61,395 nucleotides of DNA from the NCBI GenBank assembly GCA_030448025.1, contig JAUJNQ010000002.1:160820-222214 (forward strand). Direction: 5' to 3'. Source of the DNA: Acidimicrobiales bacterium (GTDB lineage Bacteria > Actinomycetota > Acidimicrobiia > Acidimicrobiales > GCA-2861595). Each line of letters begins with the position of its first letter. Positions within the stretch are counted from its first letter, which is position 1. The notes beneath the pieces were generated by a model. The model was not told the origin of the DNA and ran no database searches. It worked only from the letters and a program-made list of their open reading frames with translations. Below, piece by piece: positions 47,789 to 56,786 of the stretch. Position numbers and translations under genes: made by a program.

Positions 47789-47866
47789 CGGGAAGTAGCG
47801 CAGCTTGGTTAGCGCGCAGCGTTCGGGACGCTGAGGTCGCGGGTTCGAATCCCGCCTTCCCGACCA
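47789..47866 (+). tRNA. tRNA-Pro (CGG) with encoded CCA
   Basis: CGGGAAG (47789-47795) pairs with CTTCCCG (47856-47862). The anticodon stem CAGCG/CGCTG holds anticodon CGG at 47824-47826. The T loop is GGTTCGAATCC. Discriminator A and CCA end at 47866. Confidence 0.95.
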
Positions 47867-48395
47867 GAACGCCCGGCTTGTGCGTTACCCGGCTCGGTTC
47901 ATCAGCTTGGCTCTGCTAGATGCGCTGAACCCAGTTGTGGTGACGTGTCTCGGAGCTGAGAGGCCACGGCGTCCATCGTCACCAGCCGGTCGCGATGCGC
48001 CCGGTCACGCCCTACTGGATCAGCTGCTATTCGGAACACATCGTCGATGAAGAAGTGCAGCTGCCAGAACGGCCGAAAATTAGATGTTCTGACTCGGATC
48101 CATCATCGGAGTTCCGGTCACCATCTCGATATCGGCGTGGGCGGTGTTGTGCCCGTTCTCGATCGACCAGGACAGCAACGCGAGCTCATGAGCTCGTCCA
48201 CGCCCGAGACGTCCTGGTTGAAGGGCTGGACGCCCATCTCGGCGAACTCGTCCGGACCTGAAGGCTGAGATCGGCGGGTCGAGTGGATCGAGCTCAGACC
48301 CTCCAAGAACCCGCTCGGGTCTCCCGCCGTTGAAGAAGCGAGAGCGACCAGTCGGTCGCGAAATGCTCCACGGGGCGGCGTAGACTGGTGCCAAG
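47867..48395. other. Gene-poor stretch between tRNA-Pro and tRNA-Ser
   Basis: No gene could be supported here. The minus strand has fragments in two frames (EFAEMGVQPFNQDVSG; HELALLSWSIENGHNTAHAD) that look protein-like and may be the relic of one decayed gene, but no family is recognised. Confidence 0.4.
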
Positions 48396-48482
48396 GGAGA
48401 GGTGCGAGAGCGGCCGAATCGGACTCACTGCTAATGAGTTGACCCTTCACCGGGTCCGAGGGTTCAAATCCCTCCCTCTCCG
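48396..48482 (+). tRNA. tRNA-Ser (GCT)
   Basis: GGAGAGG (48396-48402) pairs with CCTCTCC (48475-48481), discriminator G. The anticodon stem ACTCA/TGAGT holds GCT at 48430-48432. The long variable arm is usual for serine tRNA. CCA is not encoded. Confidence 0.95.
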
Positions 48483-48530
48483 CTCACTCCTCTCGCTGGC
48501 CGGCGCCTCCCCCTAGACTCGTCGGTCCAA

Positions 48531-48604
48531 GCGCTCGTAGCTCAACGGATCAGAGCATCTGACTACGGATCAGAAGGTTGGGGGTTCGAATCCCTCCGAG
48601 CGCG
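48531..48604 (+). tRNA. tRNA-Arg (ACG)
   Basis: GCGCTCG (48531-48537) pairs with CGAGCGC (48597-48603), discriminator G. The anticodon stem TCTGA/TCAGA holds ACG at 48565-48567. CCA is not encoded. A degraded copy lies 1.7 kb downstream. Confidence 0.95.
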
Positions 48605-48796
48605 CTGCGGGTGCTGGTCATGGCGTTGCGGCCTCCAGCGGAAGGGTGCCAGCACCAGCCTTCCTGGTACCAAATGGTCTGCCCACGCTGGCAATGCGCG
48701 GCTCGCCCTGTAACCGTGAGGCGGCGATGGACCTCGACTCATCCCGGGGCCGTTCAGACTGACTGTGTTGCCGCTGGCCGGCGGTACATTCCAAGC

Positions 48797-49873
48797 GTGG
48801 GTCGAGACTTCGGTGACCGAGTCGAGGGTTGCCTCCTCGGTGGCGCCGTGGGTGACGCGCTGGGCGCGCCGGTCGAGTTCCAGAGCTGGGTCGACATCAA
48901 GGCCCAATACGGAGATCAAGGACTCACCACACTGGAGCCGCCAGGGCACTTCACCGACGACACGCAGATGACGCTGTTTACCTGCGAGGGCCTCATACGT
49001 GCGTCAGTCCGAGGTCGCACGAAGGGCATCTGTCATCGGCCATCCGTCGTTCGCCACGCCTATCTCCGGTGGCTCCACACCCAAGGCGTGCCCTGGCGAC
49101 AGGCGGCGTCTGACTTCGCCGGGCAAGCCGACGAACCAGACGGCTGGCTGGTGCGCGATCAGCGTCTGCACCGCCGGCAGGCGCCGGGCAACACGTGCCT
49201 GTCTGCCCTCGAGTTGGGTGGCCGAGGCACGAGTGAGGAACCCGCGAACCACTCCAAGGGATGTGGCGGCGTGATGCGGGCGGCACCCGTCGGCCTGTTC
49301 CTTCGCCGCCAACCCGCCAGCGACATCTACAAACTGGGTTGCGACGTCGCGGCGATCACTCACGGTCACCCCGACGGATGGCACTCAGCTGGCGCCCTTG
49401 CGGTCATCGTCAGCGAACTGGTGCGTGGCGAAGAGATGGACCAAGCCGTCGCCACGGCGTTGCCTCTCACGTCCGACAGCATCCGAGCGGTGCTCGAGAA
49501 CGCCATGGAGGTTGCCGAGGACGGGCCTCCGACGCCATTGGTGATCGAGGAACGCTTAGGGGCCGGGTGGGTCGGGGAAGAAGCGCTGGCGATCGCCGCC
49601 GCCTGCGCCCTTGGCGGGGATGACTTCCCGACAGGCCTCCTTGCCGCGGTGAATCACTCCGGCGACACCGACTCGACCGGCGCGATCTGCGGCAACCTGC
49701 TCGGTGCCTCCCATGGTCGCTCAGCCATCCCTGCCGAGTGGCTCGCCGCACTGGACGCCGCCGATCTCGTGGAGACTGTTGCGAGCGACTTGATCCTCGA
49801 GGTCACGAACCCCCCGTCGGACGGAGACCAGTCCGTCCCCTCGTGGTGGTGGGAGCGCTACCCAGGATGGTGA
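48797..49873 (+). CDS. ADP-ribosylglycohydrolase (DraG-like)
   Basis: A 358-residue enzyme of the DraG/ARH family, which removes ADP-ribose from proteins or nucleic acids with a dimetal site. GCLLGGAVGDALGAPVEF, the metal motif HFTDDTQMTLF, SKGCGGVMRAAPVG and the C-terminal metal motif VNHSGDTDSTGAICGNLLGA are complete. The start is GTG 48797. It lies between intact tRNA-Arg and a tRNA-Arg remnant, upstream of RNA repair genes. Confidence 0.9.
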   Translation: MGRDFGDRVEGCLLGGAVGDALGAPVEFQSWVDIKAQYGDQGLTTLEPPGHFTDDTQMTLFTCEGLIRASVRGRTKGICHRPSVVRHAYLRWLHTQGVPWRQAASDFAGQADEPDGWLVRDQRLHRRQAPGNTCLSALELGGRGTSEEPANHSKGCGGVMRAAPVGLFLRRQPASDIYKLGCDVAAITHGHPDGWHSAGALAVIVSELVRGEEMDQAVATALPLTSDSIRAVLENAMEVAEDGPPTPLVIEERLGAGWVGEEALAIAAACALGGDDFPTGLLAAVNHSGDTDSTGAICGNLLGASHGRSAIPAEWLAALDAADLVETVASDLILEVTNPPSDGDQSVPSWWWERYPGW

Positions 49874-50320
49874 CCGCTCCCGGATTTGATGAGCGTTGAT
49901 CCAGGCCTGGGTGCCGGCCCTTGGAGCCAGCGCTTGTGGTCGATGTGTGAGGAGCCGAGGCCATCATCGGGTTGGCCGAGCCCATCGATGCTCGAGCGAG
50001 CTGGCGGTTCAAGGTGTCGGCGATGAACGCCTCGGCGCCTCCCCCGGTGCGGATACTGGTCAAGTGGTGCGAGCCACGCCCAGGTCGGATACTGGTCAAG
50101 ACCTGGTCACAGACTCACCATGTGAAGGCGGAGAAGACCGCCTGAACGGACAGGTTCGGCCGCCGGGCGATCAGGCCAACTCCCCTGCTCGGGCAACGGT
50201 TCGGGACTCAAGCGCCCGTAGCTCAGCGCAGCACGTCAGAGCATCTGACTACGATCACAAGGTTGGGATTCGAATCCCTCGGCTTCGACTTCGGGTCGCA
50301 GCGCGCCAAAAGGCGATTCG
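49874..50320. other. Non-coding stretch with short repeats
   Basis: No gene is supported. GGATACTGGTCAAG occurs twice (50051-50064, 50087-50100). A 26-bp block at 49927-49952 recurs at 50540-50565 inside the damaged hen1. The tRNA-Arg remnant lies at its right end. Confidence 0.5.
50212..50288 (+). pseudogene. tRNA-Arg (ACG) remnant
   Basis: It matches the intact tRNA-Arg at 48531 through CGTAGCTCA, GTCAGAGCATCTGACTACG, AAGGTTGGG and TTCGAATCCCTC, but the acceptor stem no longer pairs, the D arm has extra bases and the anticodon stem is broken. The preceding bases (CAAGCGC) also match, so it is a duplicate of that locus. Confidence 0.72.
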
Positions 50321-51839
50321 ATGCTGCTCACCATCTCGACAACCCATCAGCCGGCGACCGACCTCGGGTTCCTGCTTCACAAGAACCCCGCAGCAGCGCG
50401 TCCGAACCACAGGGCCGTCGAGATGTCATTCGGCACGGCGTCCGTCGTCGGGCCCGGAGGCCACCGTCATGGGCGCGCCATCAAAGTGCATGGTCCGCTG
50501 CCCTCATCGTGGAGGTCGACCCCGTCGGACTCGTGCGCGCCAGCGCTTGTGGTCGATGTGTGAGGGCCCCAAGGGCAATCGACTTCTCCCTCGCCCAGTA
50601 CGTCAACGACCGGCCCTACGCCGCCTCGTCGTTCCTGTCGAGCGGTGCACCGCTGCCCTCATCGTGGAGGTCGACCCCGTTGGGTGGCTACGTCGCCTCG
50701 TCGTTCCTGTCGTCAACAAGCTGTTCGGGACCGCGCTCACGGGTCGCAGCAAGCTGTTCGGGAGCGGCCGGAGCTGGCCCGGACACCTATCCCGGTCAGC
50801 GCCCACCTCCCGGTCGTGCCATGTCGAGGCGGTGAGACGATCCTGCGACGGCTGTTCGAGCCGCTCGGGTACCAGGTCGCCGCGACCGCCATCCCGTTGG
50901 ACCCGAACTTCCCGCAGTGGGGTGACAGCCGTTACGTCGACGTCACGCTCACCGCCACGGAGCGGCTACGGGATCTACTCGAGCACCTGTTCGTGCTGCT
51001 GCCGGTCCTGGACGACGACAAGCACTACTGGGTCGGCCCCGAAGAGATCGAGAAGCTCCTTCGCCGCGGCGGCGACTGGCTCGCTACGCACCCCGACCGC
51101 GAGCTCATCGCCCGTCGTTACCTCCGCCACGACCGGCGGCTCACCAACGAGGCTCTCGGGCGGCTGCTCGCCGACGAAGCCGACGACCCGGACGAGGCCG
51201 AAGCTGCCCACGACGCCGAAGAAGAGGCGGTCGAAAAGCGGATAAGCCTGAACGACCAGCGCCTCGCTGCTGTCATCGATCAGATCAGGGAAGTGGGCGG
51301 TCGGCGCGTCGTCGATCTCGGGTGCGGCGGCGGCGCGCTCGTGAAGCGCATCCTGAGCGACACGAAGGCCGAGAAGATCCTCGGTGTCGATGTCTCCTAC
51401 CGCGCCCTCGAAGGTGCCGCTCGGCGCCTGCACCTCGACACCATGGCGCCGCGCCAGCGTGAGCGTGGAGCTCGTCCAGGGAGCACTCACCTATCGTGAT
51501 CGTCGTCTGCAGGGTTTCGACGTCGCAACCGTCATCGAGGTGATCGAGCACCTCGACCCTCCCCGGCTCGGTGCGTTCGAGCGTGCACTGTTCGCCTACG
51601 CCTGCCCCACCACGGTGATCGTGACGACGCCCAGCGTGGAGTACAACACGCTCTTCGAGAGCCTTCCCGCCGGTGCCCTGCGCCACCGCGACCATCGCTT
51701 CGAGTGGACTCGAGCGGAGTTCGCGGACTGGGCAGGCGCCATCGCCTCGCGGCATGGCTACACCGTTGAGCTGTCCGGTATCGGGCCCGAAGATGCGGAG
51801 CTCGGGACGCCCACGCAGATGGCGGTGTTCCGCCGATGA
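50321..51839 (+). pseudogene. hen1: Bacterial Hen1 RNA 2'-O-methyltransferase, scrambled and frameshifted
   Basis: ATG 50321 gives the Hen1 N-terminus (MLLTISTTHQPATDLGFLLH). The order then breaks: AALIVEVDPVGLV (about 50497), SLAQYVNDRPYAASSFLS (about 50588), a second block of AALIVEVDPVGW (about 50652) and a second ASSFLS-type block, then a readable frame from about 50777 (TPIPVSAHLPVVPCRGGE; YWVGPEEIEKLLRRGGDW; RRVVDLGCGGGALVKRIL, the SAM site). Near 51450 it shifts again to VELVQGALTYRDRRLQGFD and VIEVIEHLD, ending at 51839. Hen1 methylates the 3' terminal ribose of RNA being repaired by Pnkp, whose gene overlaps the end. Confidence 0.85.
50495..50525 (+). repeat. 31-bp direct repeat inside hen1
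   Basis: This block recurs exactly at 50650-50680. Further duplicated pieces are 50622-50640 with 50694-50712, and the CAAGCTGTTCGGGA motif twice near 50717 and 50749. In an intact hen1 each would occur once. Confidence 0.75.
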
Positions 51840-54373
51840 AGATCACCCTGCCCGAGGTCTCGCTCGTCGCGCTCGTCGGCGTGTCCGGCTCGGGGAAGTC
51901 CACGTTCGCCACCACTCACTTCCTGCCCACCGAGGTGCTGTCCTCGGACTTCTGCCGGGGACTGGTGAGCGACGACCAGAACGACCAGAAGGCGACCAAC
52001 GCCGCCTTCGACGTGTTGCACTTCATCGCCTCCAAGCGGCTGGACGCCGGGAAGCTCACGGTGGTCGACGCCACCAACGTGCAATCCGAGGCCCGCAAGT
52101 CGCTCGTGGCGCTTGCCAAGAAGCACCACAGCCTCGCCGTCGCCATCGTCCTCGACGTCCCCGAGTCCATCTGCGCCGAGCGAAACGCCACCCGGCCGGA
52201 CCGCAACTTCGGCGCCCACGTGCTGCGCAACCAGCGCAGCCAGCTCCGCCGATCGATGAAGGGTCTTCGCCGCGAGGGCTTCCACAAGGTCTTCTTCCTC
52301 AACGGCGTCGAGGAGATCTCCAGAGCCACCATCGAACGCCGGCCGCTCTGGAGTGACCGCCGCAACGACCACGGCCCCTTCGACATCATCGGGGACGTCC
52401 ACGGCTGCTTCGACGAGCTCGCCACGCTCCTCAGCCAGCTCGGCTACGAGCTCGAGGACGACGGCGCCGGTGCGCATCACCCGCACGGGCGCCGGGCCTT
52501 CTTCGTCGGCGACCTCGTCGACCGCGGGCCGGCGACCCCCGCTGTCCTCCGGCTCGTCATGGGCATGGTCGACGCAGGCAACGCCCTCTGCGTACCCGGC
52601 AACCACGAGGCCAAGCTGCTGCGCGCCCTGCAGGGCCGCAACGTGACGGTCAGTCACGGCCTGGGCGAGTCGCTCGCCCAGCTCGCCGAGGAGCCGCCCG
52701 AGCTCTCGAAGAGGGTTGCCGAGTTCATCGACGGCCTGGTCAGCCATCTCGTCCTCGACGGCGGCAAGCTCGTCGTCGCCCACGCCGGGCTGCGCGCCGA
52801 CATGCATGGTCGAGCCTCGGCTGCGGTCCGGTCGTTCGCTCTCTACGGCGACACCACCGGCGAGACCGACGAGTTCGGTCTCCCCGTCCGCTACCCCTGG
52901 GCCGAGGACTATCGCGGCGATGCGATGGTCGTCTACGGCCATACCCCGGTGCCCGAGGCGACGTGGCTCAACCGCACCATCTGCATCGACACCGGCTGCG
53001 TGTTCGGCGGCCAGCTCACCGCGCTCCGTTACCCCGAACGCGAGCTCGTCTCGGTGCCCGCGGCGCGCACGTACTGGGAACCGGTCCGGCCGCTCCAGCC
53101 CGCCACCGAGGACGTGACCCGAGAGGCGACCGACCTCGACCTCGACGACGTCGTCGGCAAGCGCATCATCACCACCCGCCTCAGCCAGACGGTGACGATT
53201 CGCGAAGAGAACGCCATCGCCGCACTGGAGGTGATGAGCCGCTTCGCCGTCGACCCGCGCTGGCTCGTTTACCTCCCCCCCACCATGGCGCCCACCGCGA
53301 CGACCACGGTTGAAGGCCTCCTCGAGCACCCAACCGAAGCGTTCGACTCCTTCCGCCGCGATGGCGTGACCAGAGTGGTGTGCGAGGAGAAGCACATGGG
53401 CTCCCGCGCCGTGGTCGTCGTCTGCCGTGACCCAGAAGCGGCGGAGCGGCGGTTCGACGTGGCGAGCAGCCGTGCCGCCGGCACCATCGTCACCCGCACC
53501 GGCCGACGGTTCTTCAATGACTCAGAGCAGGAGCTCGCTCTTCTCGACAAGATCCGCGACGGCATCACCACCACCGGACTGTGGGACGCGCTGACCACTG
53601 ACTGGCTCGTCCTGGACGCCGAGCTCCTTCCCTGGTCGGCCAAGGCTGAGGAGCTGCTCCGCCGCCAGTACGCCTCCGTAGGTGCAGCGGCCACCGCCGC
53701 CCTGAGGGCTGAAGCCGACGTGATCGGGACCGCCCTCGGACGAGGTGCAGACCTCCAGGACCTTCTGGCCCGGACCGGCGAGCGCAGCCTCATGGCCGAG
53801 CGCTTCGTCGACGCGTACCGCCAGTACTGCTGGCCCGTCGAGTCCGTGGACGACCTCCGCCTGGCTCCGTTCCAGATCCTCGCAGGTGAAGGCCAGGTCC
53901 ATGCCCTCACCGACCACCTCTGGCACATCGACGTCCTCGGTCGCCTCGCCGAAGCGGACCCGGCCACGTTCCGCTCCACCGCCATCACGACCGTCGAGCT
54001 CGACGACACGAGCAGCGAAGCGGCTGCCACCGCCTGGTGGCAGGAGCTCACCGAGCGCGGCGGAGAAGGCATGGTCGTCAAGCCCGTCGATGTCGTGCAC
54101 CGCGGCCCCAAGGGCAACACCCAGCCGGGCATCAAGTGCCGCGGACCCGAGTATCTCCGCATCATCTACGGGGCCGAGTACACCGCCGAGGCCAACCTCA
54201 CCCGACTGCGATCGCGTGGCCTCGGCCACAAGCGGTCCCTCGCATTGCGCGAGTTCGCTCTCGGTGTCGAAGCTCTGGAACGCTTCGTCGGCGGCGAGCC
54301 GCTCTACCGAGTCCACCAATGCGTCTTCGGGGTGCTCGCCTTGGAGAGCGAACCCGTCGACCCAAGGCTTTGA
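51836..54373 (+). CDS. pnkp: Polynucleotide kinase-phosphatase-ligase (Pnkp)
   Basis: An 845-residue RNA repair enzyme. The N-terminal kinase has GVSGSGKST (15-23) and VVDATNVQSEARKSL. The middle metallophosphatase has IIGDVHGCFDEL, FVGDLVDRGPATP, CVPGNHEAKLL and VVAHAGLRADMHG. The C-terminal ligase/adenylyltransferase has the nucleotidyl lysine in CEEKHMGSRAVVVV (Lys about 519) and EGMVVKPVDV. All three domains are complete, unlike the preceding hen1, with which it shares an ATGA overlap. It heals and joins cut RNA, notably tRNAs cleaved by toxins. Confidence 0.95.
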   Translation: MKITLPEVSLVALVGVSGSGKSTFATTHFLPTEVLSSDFCRGLVSDDQNDQKATNAAFDVLHFIASKRLDAGKLTVVDATNVQSEARKSLVALAKKHHSLAVAIVLDVPESICAERNATRPDRNFGAHVLRNQRSQLRRSMKGLRREGFHKVFFLNGVEEISRATIERRPLWSDRRNDHGPFDIIGDVHGCFDELATLLSQLGYELEDDGAGAHHPHGRRAFFVGDLVDRGPATPAVLRLVMGMVDAGNALCVPGNHEAKLLRALQGRNVTVSHGLGESLAQLAEEPPELSKRVAEFIDGLVSHLVLDGGKLVVAHAGLRADMHGRASAAVRSFALYGDTTGETDEFGLPVRYPWAEDYRGDAMVVYGHTPVPEATWLNRTICIDTGCVFGGQLTALRYPERELVSVPAARTYWEPVRPLQPATEDVTREATDLDLDDVVGKRIITTRLSQTVTIREENAIAALEVMSRFAVDPRWLVYLPPTMAPTATTTVEGLLEHPTEAFDSFRRDGVTRVVCEEKHMGSRAVVVVCRDPEAAERRFDVASSRAAGTIVTRTGRRFFNDSEQELALLDKIRDGITTTGLWDALTTDWLVLDAELLPWSAKAEELLRRQYASVGAAATAALRAEADVIGTALGRGADLQDLLARTGERSLMAERFVDAYRQYCWPVESVDDLRLAPFQILAGEGQVHALTDHLWHIDVLGRLAEADPATFRSTAITTVELDDTSSEAAATAWWQELTERGGEGMVVKPVDVVHRGPKGNTQPGIKCRGPEYLRIIYGAEYTAEANLTRLRSRGLGHKRSLALREFALGVEALERFVGGEPLYRVHQCVFGVLALESEPVDPRL

Positions 54374-54376
54374 TGC

Positions 54377-54980
54377 GCTCTACTTCTCGGGATTGATCCC
54401 AGTGCCCCGAAGCTGCGCGAGGGTCCGTATGAAGTGCGACTGGCGGAGAAGTATGGAGTGAGCGTCGGGCAGGCCGAGGAAATGATCGATCGCATGGTCC
54501 ATGCCGGCCGTGGCGACGGGTTGTCCCTGCGCTTCGACGTGGCCCGGCCCGGCAACACCCTGGACGCTCACCGGTTGCTGCATCTGGCCCGCATGGCCGG
54601 CGTCCAGGACGAGCTGGTGGAGCGCCTGCTGGCAGCAGTGTTCACCAACGGTGAAGCCATTGCGGACAGCGAGACGCTGGCCCGCTGCTACCGACGTGGG
54701 CCTCGATCCCGAGGAAGCGGAGCGGGTGTTGTCGACCGACGCCCATGCCGGCGAGGTGCGGTCCGACGAACTGGAGGCGGCAAGGCTCGCTGTCCGCAGT
54801 GTCCCCTCCTTCGCTTTCGACCGCTATGGGGCCTCCGGCGCCCAGGCGCCCGACGTGCTGCTCGATGCGCTGCAGCGGGCGTGGAGGGGCTCCCACGCGG
54901 AGGAAGGCGGACTGGCTGCGGGAACCGAGACGCCGGGCTGCGAGACGCCGGGCTGCGAGGACGGCTCCTGCGCCGTGTGA
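54377..54980 (+). pseudogene. FrnE/DsbA-family oxidoreductase remnant
   Basis: Directly after the pnkp stop, an open frame reads IDPSAPKLREGPYEVRLAEK, then VGQAEEMIDRM and TLDAHRLLHLARMAGVQDEL, the helical part and second half of FrnE-like proteins. The first 60 or so residues, including the CxxC and thioredoxin start, are missing. A shift near 54690 (one C too many) leads to TDVGLDPEEAERVLSTDAHA and SVPSFAFDRYGASGAQAPDV. The end has a short Cys repeat (ETPGCETPGCEDGSC). The truncation point is likely the edge of the inserted RNA repair island. Confidence 0.72.
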
Positions 54981-55031
54981 TCGCCTCGCACCCAGCCGCC
55001 CGTCGGCGCTGCTCGCCGGTACCGTTCGCCT

Positions 55032-55872
55032 ATGTCCAGAGAGGAGGATGCCCGAGCTCGAGCAGTCCTTCACACCCTGGCCGACCTCTCCCCTTCGGCT
55101 GAGCAACGTTCGCCCGGCCACGCCATTCCCCTCGAGTGGTTTCGCTGGTTGGCGATGGAGGCGGTGCGTCTGTTCCCGCCCGAGGGCCTCCTTCCCCTCG
55201 CCACCGCACCGGACGAGGCAAGGACCGTGGCCATAGACCGCCGGTTCGGAGAGCGACTGGCCGCCGTCGACCAGCTCCGGCCGGGGCAGCGGTCGCTGCG
55301 GGCAGGGTGGTTGTTCGTCGGCTCGACCTGCGAGTCGGGACCGTCCACGCCTTCCAGGGCAACGAGAGGGACGTCATCATCGCCTCTCTGGGATTAGGCC
55401 CCGACGACGAGGTTCGCTCGTGGAGGTTCGTCGAGGACCCGCATCTCTTCACGGTCTTCTCCACGCGGGCCAGGAAGCGCCTGGTCTCGTCCACTCTGCC
55501 GATCCCCCTCCCGGCGGCGTGTTGGCCGAGTTCCTCGCTCAGGCCGACACCGCCCCCGGTCGCCCGAGGCCGGCTGGCCACGTTGACGAATGGCCTGCGG
55601 GGATCGCCGCCGAGCTCGAGGCCGCCGGCTTGCCGGTGATCTCGGGCTACCCGAGCGGCCGGCACGTGGTCGATGTCTGCGTCGGCGATTCTCGGCGGTA
55701 CTTCGCCGTCGAATGCTGCGTCCATGCCGAGGGTCCGGAGGCCCACATCGATCGGCACCTCTCGCTGTCCCGGCTGGGGTGGGACTTCCTGGAGGCATAC
55801 CAGTCCCGCTGGGGGGACCGGCGAGGCGAGCTCGTCGTGGAGCTCCACCGCCAGCTGGCCGACCATCGATGA
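55032..55872 (+). pseudogene. Superfamily 1 helicase C-terminal remnant, three frames
   Basis: Frame one runs from ATG 55032 to about 55310 (LEWFRWLAMEAVRLFPPEG). Frame two gives RRLDLRVGTVHAFQGNERDV and EDPHLFTVFSTRARKRLV, the conserved C-terminal motifs of UPF1/Dna2-like helicases. Frame three gives PPPGGVLAEFLAQAD and YFAVECCVHAEGPEAH to the stop at 55872. Adding one G at about 55312 (GGG to GGGG) and one at about 55487 (TCG to TCGG) joins all three. The ATPase N-terminal half is absent, so it is incomplete in any case. Confidence 0.65.
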
Positions 55873-55903
55873 GGTCAGTCTCCCCGCCGCCGGGGCCAAC
55901 CGG

Positions 55904-56786
55904 TCAGAAGGGGAGGGCACCCGCTGCGGCCCCGCCAACTGCTGTTCGCCCTTGGGGGCGGCACGGGTGGCCGTCTCCAAGTCGATCTCCCCGAAGTGCC
56001 GCTTGCGGACGGCGCAGCCAACGGCCCGGACCGGAAGGCTCCAGAGGCTCTCGTCGGCGAGGCCCTTGGCCACCCTCCCCGACTCCCAGTTCAGCTTCTC
56101 GTGAACCAGGTCGACCTCCTGGTCGTCGGTCGTAGCCAGATAGGAGATGGCGGTCCACCACACCCGCTCCCGGTAGTACTTGAGACCGGTCGACGACAGA
56201 ATGTCGTCGAGGCTGAACATCACGCGGCCGAGGAAGAGGATGCCGCCGCCGTAGTCGCGAGTGACGGTCTCTGCGACCTGGGGGATCGATCGCACCAGGA
56301 GGTTGTTCACCTGGTCATGGTCGAACTTTCGCCGAGGGAGCAGGAGATGGTCGGCCCCGTCGCCGTACTCCTTCATGGTGAGGTAAGTGGCGTAGGCGAG
56401 GTCGAAGTTGATGTGGGCGTTCAGCCCGAGGAGTAGGTCCTGGACGATCGTCCCGCTCCGGTTCTCGGCGGTCCTGTGGGCGATCTTCCATGCCCGCTCG
56501 GATTCCGGCGGCCGGTCGAACGTGGTGAGCGACCGGAAGTACAGGCTGGCGAAGTTGCCCGTGACACGTCGCACCCAGTCGCTGTCGAAGAAGATTTGTC
56601 GACCGGCGTAGTCCCGCGCTGGTCCACGGCAGCGCCCACGTTGGCCGTGACGATGTAGTAGGCCCGCAGAAACACGGCGCGGTAGTCGTCGTGCTCGTGG
56701 AAGTAGTCGAGCGCCGTGCGAATGCAGGCGAGTGCCTCCTCGGCATCCCGCGGTCGCTGGGACGCGATCTCCTGGAAGTCGGCCAT
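55904..56786 (-). CDS. DUF5995-like protein, frameshifted
   Basis: Start ATG 56786 has GAGGAGAG seven bases upstream. It reads MADFQEIASQRPRDAEEALA, HEHDDYRAVFLRAYYIVTAN, then shifts at about 56626 (CAGCGCGG for CAGGCGCGG) into DYAGRQIFFDSDWVRRVTGN, GLNAHINFDLAYATYL, KFDHDQVNNLLVRSIPQVAE and VWWTAISYLATT. The HIN-D core is the hallmark of DUF5995, of unknown function. The true end is unclear: the main frame stays open far past the family length, so a second shift near 55940 leading to the stop at 55904 is assumed. Confidence 0.62.

Follow-up and report, generated by a model that had tools for sequence, protein, structure and literature searches.

The locus and its genes

The analysed window, a stretch of 61,395 nucleotides, lies on contig C7 of a 13-contig, 2.70-Mb genome. 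Its relevant genes are listed here by window position.

47789: tRNA-Pro (found by ARAGORN and Rfam)
48396-48483, plus strand: tRNA-Ser(GCT) (ARAGORN; Rfam), whose pairing with tRNA-Arg is kept in the family
48531-48605, plus strand: intact tRNA-Arg(ACG), the native partner of tRNA-Ser (ARAGORN; Rfam)
48797-49873, plus strand: complete gene for a DraG-like ADP-ribosylglycohydrolase of 358 amino acids (PF03747; PDB DraG matches; GC3)
50321-51836, plus strand: hen1, RNA 3′-terminal methyltransferase of the Pnkp-Hen1 repair pair (PF12623; tblastn with the Hen1 of G033)
51836-54373, plus strand: pnkp, polynucleotide kinase-phosphatase-ligase, intact, 845 amino acids (TIGR04075, 1412 bits; PF16542)
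54387-54985, plus strand: DsbA-like gene, start of the conserved flank (blastn to G001:C164)

The tRNA-Arg(ACG) gene, which a sequence-only reading of this DNA had called intact, was confirmed as such (Rfam, 69.3 bits). Together with tRNA-Ser it forms a pair that is conserved in the family in variable surroundings, and the stretch from tRNA-Ser across the spacer to tRNA-Arg shows 80-88% identity to relatives. On the tRNA-Ser side a tyrosine integrase is encoded in G001, G003 and G005, the nearest relative of which was not found in this genome. This integrase of 500 amino acids occurs family-wide and divergent, 5′ of tRNA-Ser(GCT) (L066:681-2219, L065:2607-4304, L133:5058-6578), an unusual position for a tRNA-targeting integrase. 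Between tRNA-Pro and tRNA-Ser lies a low-GC gap (47866-48380) that gave no informative match outside the locus among 41 genomes, and in relatives no Pro-to-Ser junction was observed. A second tRNA-Ser(GCT)/tRNA-Arg(ACG) pair is present on contig C6 of the same assembly (L075, G000:C6:17000-28000). About 0.1 kb 3′ of its tRNA-Arg lies a tyrosine integrase gene that is disrupted, and the locus also has a Fic gene; this pair may be either a true second locus or bin contamination.

Downstream, conserved gene order starts again at 54387. In G001, which belongs to the same genus, the DsbA-like gene is followed directly by glgX-treY (blastn, G001:C164). Within the window a 1.7-kb insertion (54985-56710) separates the DsbA-like gene from glgX, genes that are 17 bp apart in G001, and it contains remnants, among them a broken helicase (AAA_12, MTES_1575). 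A variable zone adjoining tRNA-Arg is therefore real.

The DraG-like protein matched the entire PF03747 profile (E 2e-75, 254 bits, positions 1-287 of 287, above the gathering cut-off), and its TDDT and GDxDxTGA metal motifs align with chains of PDB 2woc and 2cwc, so that its earlier description as a DraG-like enzyme with full metal motifs holds. Family membership identifies it as a metal-dependent hydrolase that takes ADP-ribose off a modified target. It stayed below the equivalog cut-offs of the more specific families, with 91.9 bits against 337 for TIGR02662 (nitrogenase-regulation DraG) and 79.5 bits against 490 for NF041672 (Tri1 ADP-ribosylarginine hydrolase). No close relative was found in the five other family genomes searched (G001-G005), where G003 alone gave a weak match, and just three relatives with 52-57% identity occur in the order. 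Conservation of the gene at this position across the order, which the sequence-only reading had held to be incompatible with an island, is thus not what we found. The GC3 of the gene is 0.77, compared with 0.85-0.91 in neighbours beyond the variable stretch. Because of this low GC3 and its absence from the other family genomes the gene looks acquired, and it is probably ordinary acquired DNA.

Several possible associations of DraG genes were considered and rejected. Among nine distant DraG loci none had an adjacent tRNA gene and one had any tRNA gene at all (flanks of up to 10 kb), no DraG match was detected in the Hen1-Pnkp loci of G003, G033, G025 and G046, and no conserved partner gene was seen except in one closely related pair of loci. 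Pnkp itself is rare, being encoded in 6 of 296 genomes of the class.

The tRNA-Arg-like stretch within a mosaic

The sequence-only reading had proposed that a degraded copy of tRNA-Arg, 1.7 kb from the intact gene and including matching upstream bases, marks the far end of an island. The region between the DraG-like gene and the body of hen1 is composed as follows.

49874-50830 (about 0.9 kb), no strand assigned: mosaic of exact short pieces of an IS3-like element, tRNA-Arg and the 5′ region of hen1
49881-49906, plus strand: two IS pieces (IS 37-49 and 67-79), directly 3′ of the DraG stop codon
50002-50037, plus strand: exact 36-nt IS piece (IS 495-530)
50153-50174, plus strand: exact 22-nt IS piece (IS 663-684)
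50212-50279, plus strand: tRNA-Arg piece (the supposed remnant), a 5′ half without the 3′ acceptor end (local alignment; exact matches)
50280-50301, plus strand: exact 22-nt IS piece (IS 1042-1063) in place of the tRNA 3′ end
50473-50486, plus strand: last collinear IS piece (IS 1439-1452)

The supposed second copy as a whole covers about 50212-50285. The similarity of 50212-50279 to tRNA-Arg is far beyond chance (local alignment score 80, against a maximum of 27 in 500 shuffles), and neither ARAGORN nor Rfam called a tRNA at 50212. What did not survive is its degradation: where the piece departs from the intact gene, its letters nearly always come from a repeated IS element. The D-loop insertion at 50225-50235 is IS 850-860 and, since IS 1042-1063 stands at the 3′ end, tRNA and IS sequence alternate inside the supposed remnant itself. 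On these letters the piece was not confirmed as a decayed gene copy. The matching upstream bases shrink to three nucleotides, CAA. A 13-mer, CGGCGCCTCCCCC, and CAAG are common to the flanks of both copies. Apart from a 13-mer, the bases left of the piece differ from the tRNA-Ser spacer, and those that are not IS sequence gave no match to tRNA-Ser or elsewhere in the genome. Owing to D-loop and T-loop differences, the piece was considered less likely to derive from the C6 tRNA-Arg. A 10-mer 3′ of the remnant, AGGCGATTCG, that also lies 3′ of the same-genus tRNA-Arg was rejected as an ancestral attachment flank, because the leader of hen1 in G033, AGGCGATGCACCCGATG, is similar to it.

When the genome itself was searched at the DNA level, the pieces on either side of the supposed remnant turned up again at four other places, with a spacing of about 576 bp. 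They belong to a 1.55-kb IS3-like element with an rve-type transposase (PF00665/PF13683) that is present in four copies elsewhere in the genome with 98-99% identity. The mosaic begins at 49881, ends at about 50790 and draws on three sources, namely the IS3-like element in exact pieces of 9-36 nt, tRNA-Arg, and the 5′ part of hen1. Along 49881-50486 nine IS pieces are collinear with the element (37-49, 67-79, 495-530, 663-684, 850-860, 1042-1063, 1299-1309, 1320-1328 and 1439-1452), a chain totalling 151 nt where 500 dinucleotide shuffles gave at most 59. One further piece, IS 394-412, breaks the order by following 495-530. Genome-wide, near-exact IS fragments of 19-36 nt outside full copies are clustered at this locus only. 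A 27-mer occurs twice, at 49926 and 50539, and neither the rest of this genome nor any of 58 relatives contains it.

The N-terminal part of hen1 is scrambled within the mosaic, and the gene carries one frameshift near 51465. Its 5′ pieces are doubled (31 nt at 50495/50650, 19 nt at 50622/50694, 14 nt at 50717/50750), and their spacing falls from 155 to 72 to 33 nt before the sequence becomes single; barring the later frameshift, the rest of the gene is clean.

tRNA-Arg(ACG) as an integration site in the order

Across this actinobacterial order, tRNA-Arg(ACG) is a true hot spot for islands. In at least 12 genomes we identified a separate tRNA-Arg(ACG) half that starts at about the anticodon loop (position 27-35), extends to the 3′ end, is 40-49 nt long with 88-100% identity, and has no similarity further upstream. 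As a by-product, these halves define a precise attachment core for the tRNA-Arg(ACG) islands of the order. They were checked in G001 (two), G008, G010 (three), G013, G016, G017, G020, G024, G047, G048, G057 and G058; positions include G001:C346:1038, G001:C204:1399, G010:C32:66144 and 83155, G017:C45:32690, G024:C21:1879, G008:C57:78394 and G048:C3:390859, and the islands of G010 appear to be in tandem. Among the family genomes, which lack the DraG-like gene, the regions downstream of tRNA-Arg all differ or stop at contig breaks; in G003 a radical-SAM gene and then Hen1-Pnkp follow. A foreign gene adjoining a hot-spot tRNA is supported for the window.

An island bounded by the two tRNA copies is not supported. 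Such an island would carry the DraG-like gene as cargo, would have lost its integrase, and would have left the second copy as its displaced and since decayed attachment fragment. This is in keeping with the hot spot, with the disrupted integrase about 0.1 kb downstream of the C6 tRNA-Arg, and with the accessory nature and low GC3 of the DraG-like gene, and we consider it very improbable. For Islander, an end fragment of the tRNA gene has to occur together with an integrase, and spans shorter than 2 kb are discarded (PMC4383910). The orientation fits, both copies being on the plus strand with the second downstream of the intact gene. A displaced copy is, however, normally the 3′ part of the tRNA, and the window copy is a 5′ half without the acceptor 3′ end, opposite to the anticodon-loop-to-3′ halves of the relatives; its differences from the intact gene are IS sequence. 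With up to three mismatches allowed, this genome contains no half-site, and the core is found solely in its two intact tRNA genes. The absence of an integrase between the copies had been described correctly, DraG being the only gene there, and counts against an integrase island, as does the span of only 1.7 kb, which is under the Islander size limit.

Origin of the mosaic and comparison with known systems

We consider it likely, with a probability of roughly 0.8, that the mosaic at 49.88-50.8 kb is a chimeric consensus and hence an assembly artefact, and that the tRNA "remnant" is not an attachment site; this reading is drawn from the arrangement of the letters. The assembler would have failed to separate two or more versions of the locus and would have merged them. 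One version would carry the 1.55-kb IS3-like element inserted just 3′ of DraG; the other would lack the IS and have tRNA-Arg shortly 5′ of hen1, the left part of this version being not fully matched. Consensus letters switching between the versions would leave exact pieces of IS, tRNA-Arg and hen1 interleaved and nearly collinear. Doubled hen1 pieces with shrinking spacing are expected where two length variants merge, and since Pnkp, DraG, GlgX and TreY around the mosaic are intact, the damage is local. Decay would not leave exact IS pieces of 22-36 nt with nothing recognisable in between. The scrambling and frameshift of hen1 next to an intact pnkp probably reflect the same consensus problem. 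The out-of-order piece IS 394-412 and the unmatched bases left of the tRNA piece count against a chimera, and a simple simulation of two alleles by MAFFT majority consensus did not reproduce the mosaic. As the remnant is most likely part of an assembly chimera, it cannot mark an island end. The intact tRNA-Arg and the DraG-like gene are real and ordinary.

It is possible, and we hold it only tentatively, that a real and perhaps intact second tRNA-Arg arose by duplication between DraG and hen1, and that only its sequence was corrupted when an IS polymorphism collapsed. Such a gene is consistent with an artefactual reading of the letters, and it would suit the left-hand bases, which apart from the 13-mer are not tRNA-Ser spacer, the flanking 27-mer, which occurs twice as if part of both versions, and the closer resemblance of the piece to the window's own tRNA-Arg than to that of C6. 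No clean copy is visible, however, and CGGCGCCTCCCCC and CAAG, common to the flank of the first copy, also permit a re-read of that copy.

Readings of the mosaic as real DNA appear much less plausible. Repeated template switching among IS, tRNA and hen1 during microhomology-mediated replication, with hen1 broken, is improbable: about ten or more switches, nearly collinear within 0.6 kb, are unlike known repair events, and such a pattern occurs nowhere else in the genome. The hen1 frameshift 0.7 kb further on does allow that the gene is truly dead, in which case the Pnkp ligase would be left without its activator. Slighter still is the chance that an unknown patchwork process in one genome shuffled pieces of 10-36 nt from an IS, from a tRNA gene and from the beginning of a repair gene. 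Scans for tRNA genes and their remnants will flag consensus chimeras of the preferred kind as islands; exact, nearly collinear IS pieces in a "remnant", combined with duplicated gene pieces of shrinking spacing, provide a signature by which they can be filtered.

The locus can be compared with four known systems. With the tRNA-targeted islands of tyrosine integrases (Islander, PMC4383910) it shares an intact tRNA gene beside a variable gene, and the islands of relatives use the same tRNA; unlike in those islands, the second copy is a 5′ half without the 3′ end, interrupted by IS sequence, 1.7 kb away and with no integrase. IS3-like insertion sequences are represented by the 1.55-kb element with its rve-type transposase in four genome copies, whereas the window locus holds fragments only. 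The window protein has in common with the PF03747 family (DraG, ARH, Tri1) the full-length domain and the metal motifs, with PDB 2cwc and 2woc matched, but its scores lie far under the cut-offs that NCBIfam sets for nitrogenase DraG and for Tri1. Like the bacterial Pnkp-Hen1 RNA repair pair (PMC4411300), the window has adjacent hen1 and pnkp genes with all domains, and a Pnkp-Hen1 pair lies near tRNA-Arg in G003 as well; unlike the described pair, hen1 is scrambled at its N-terminus and frameshifted in this assembly.
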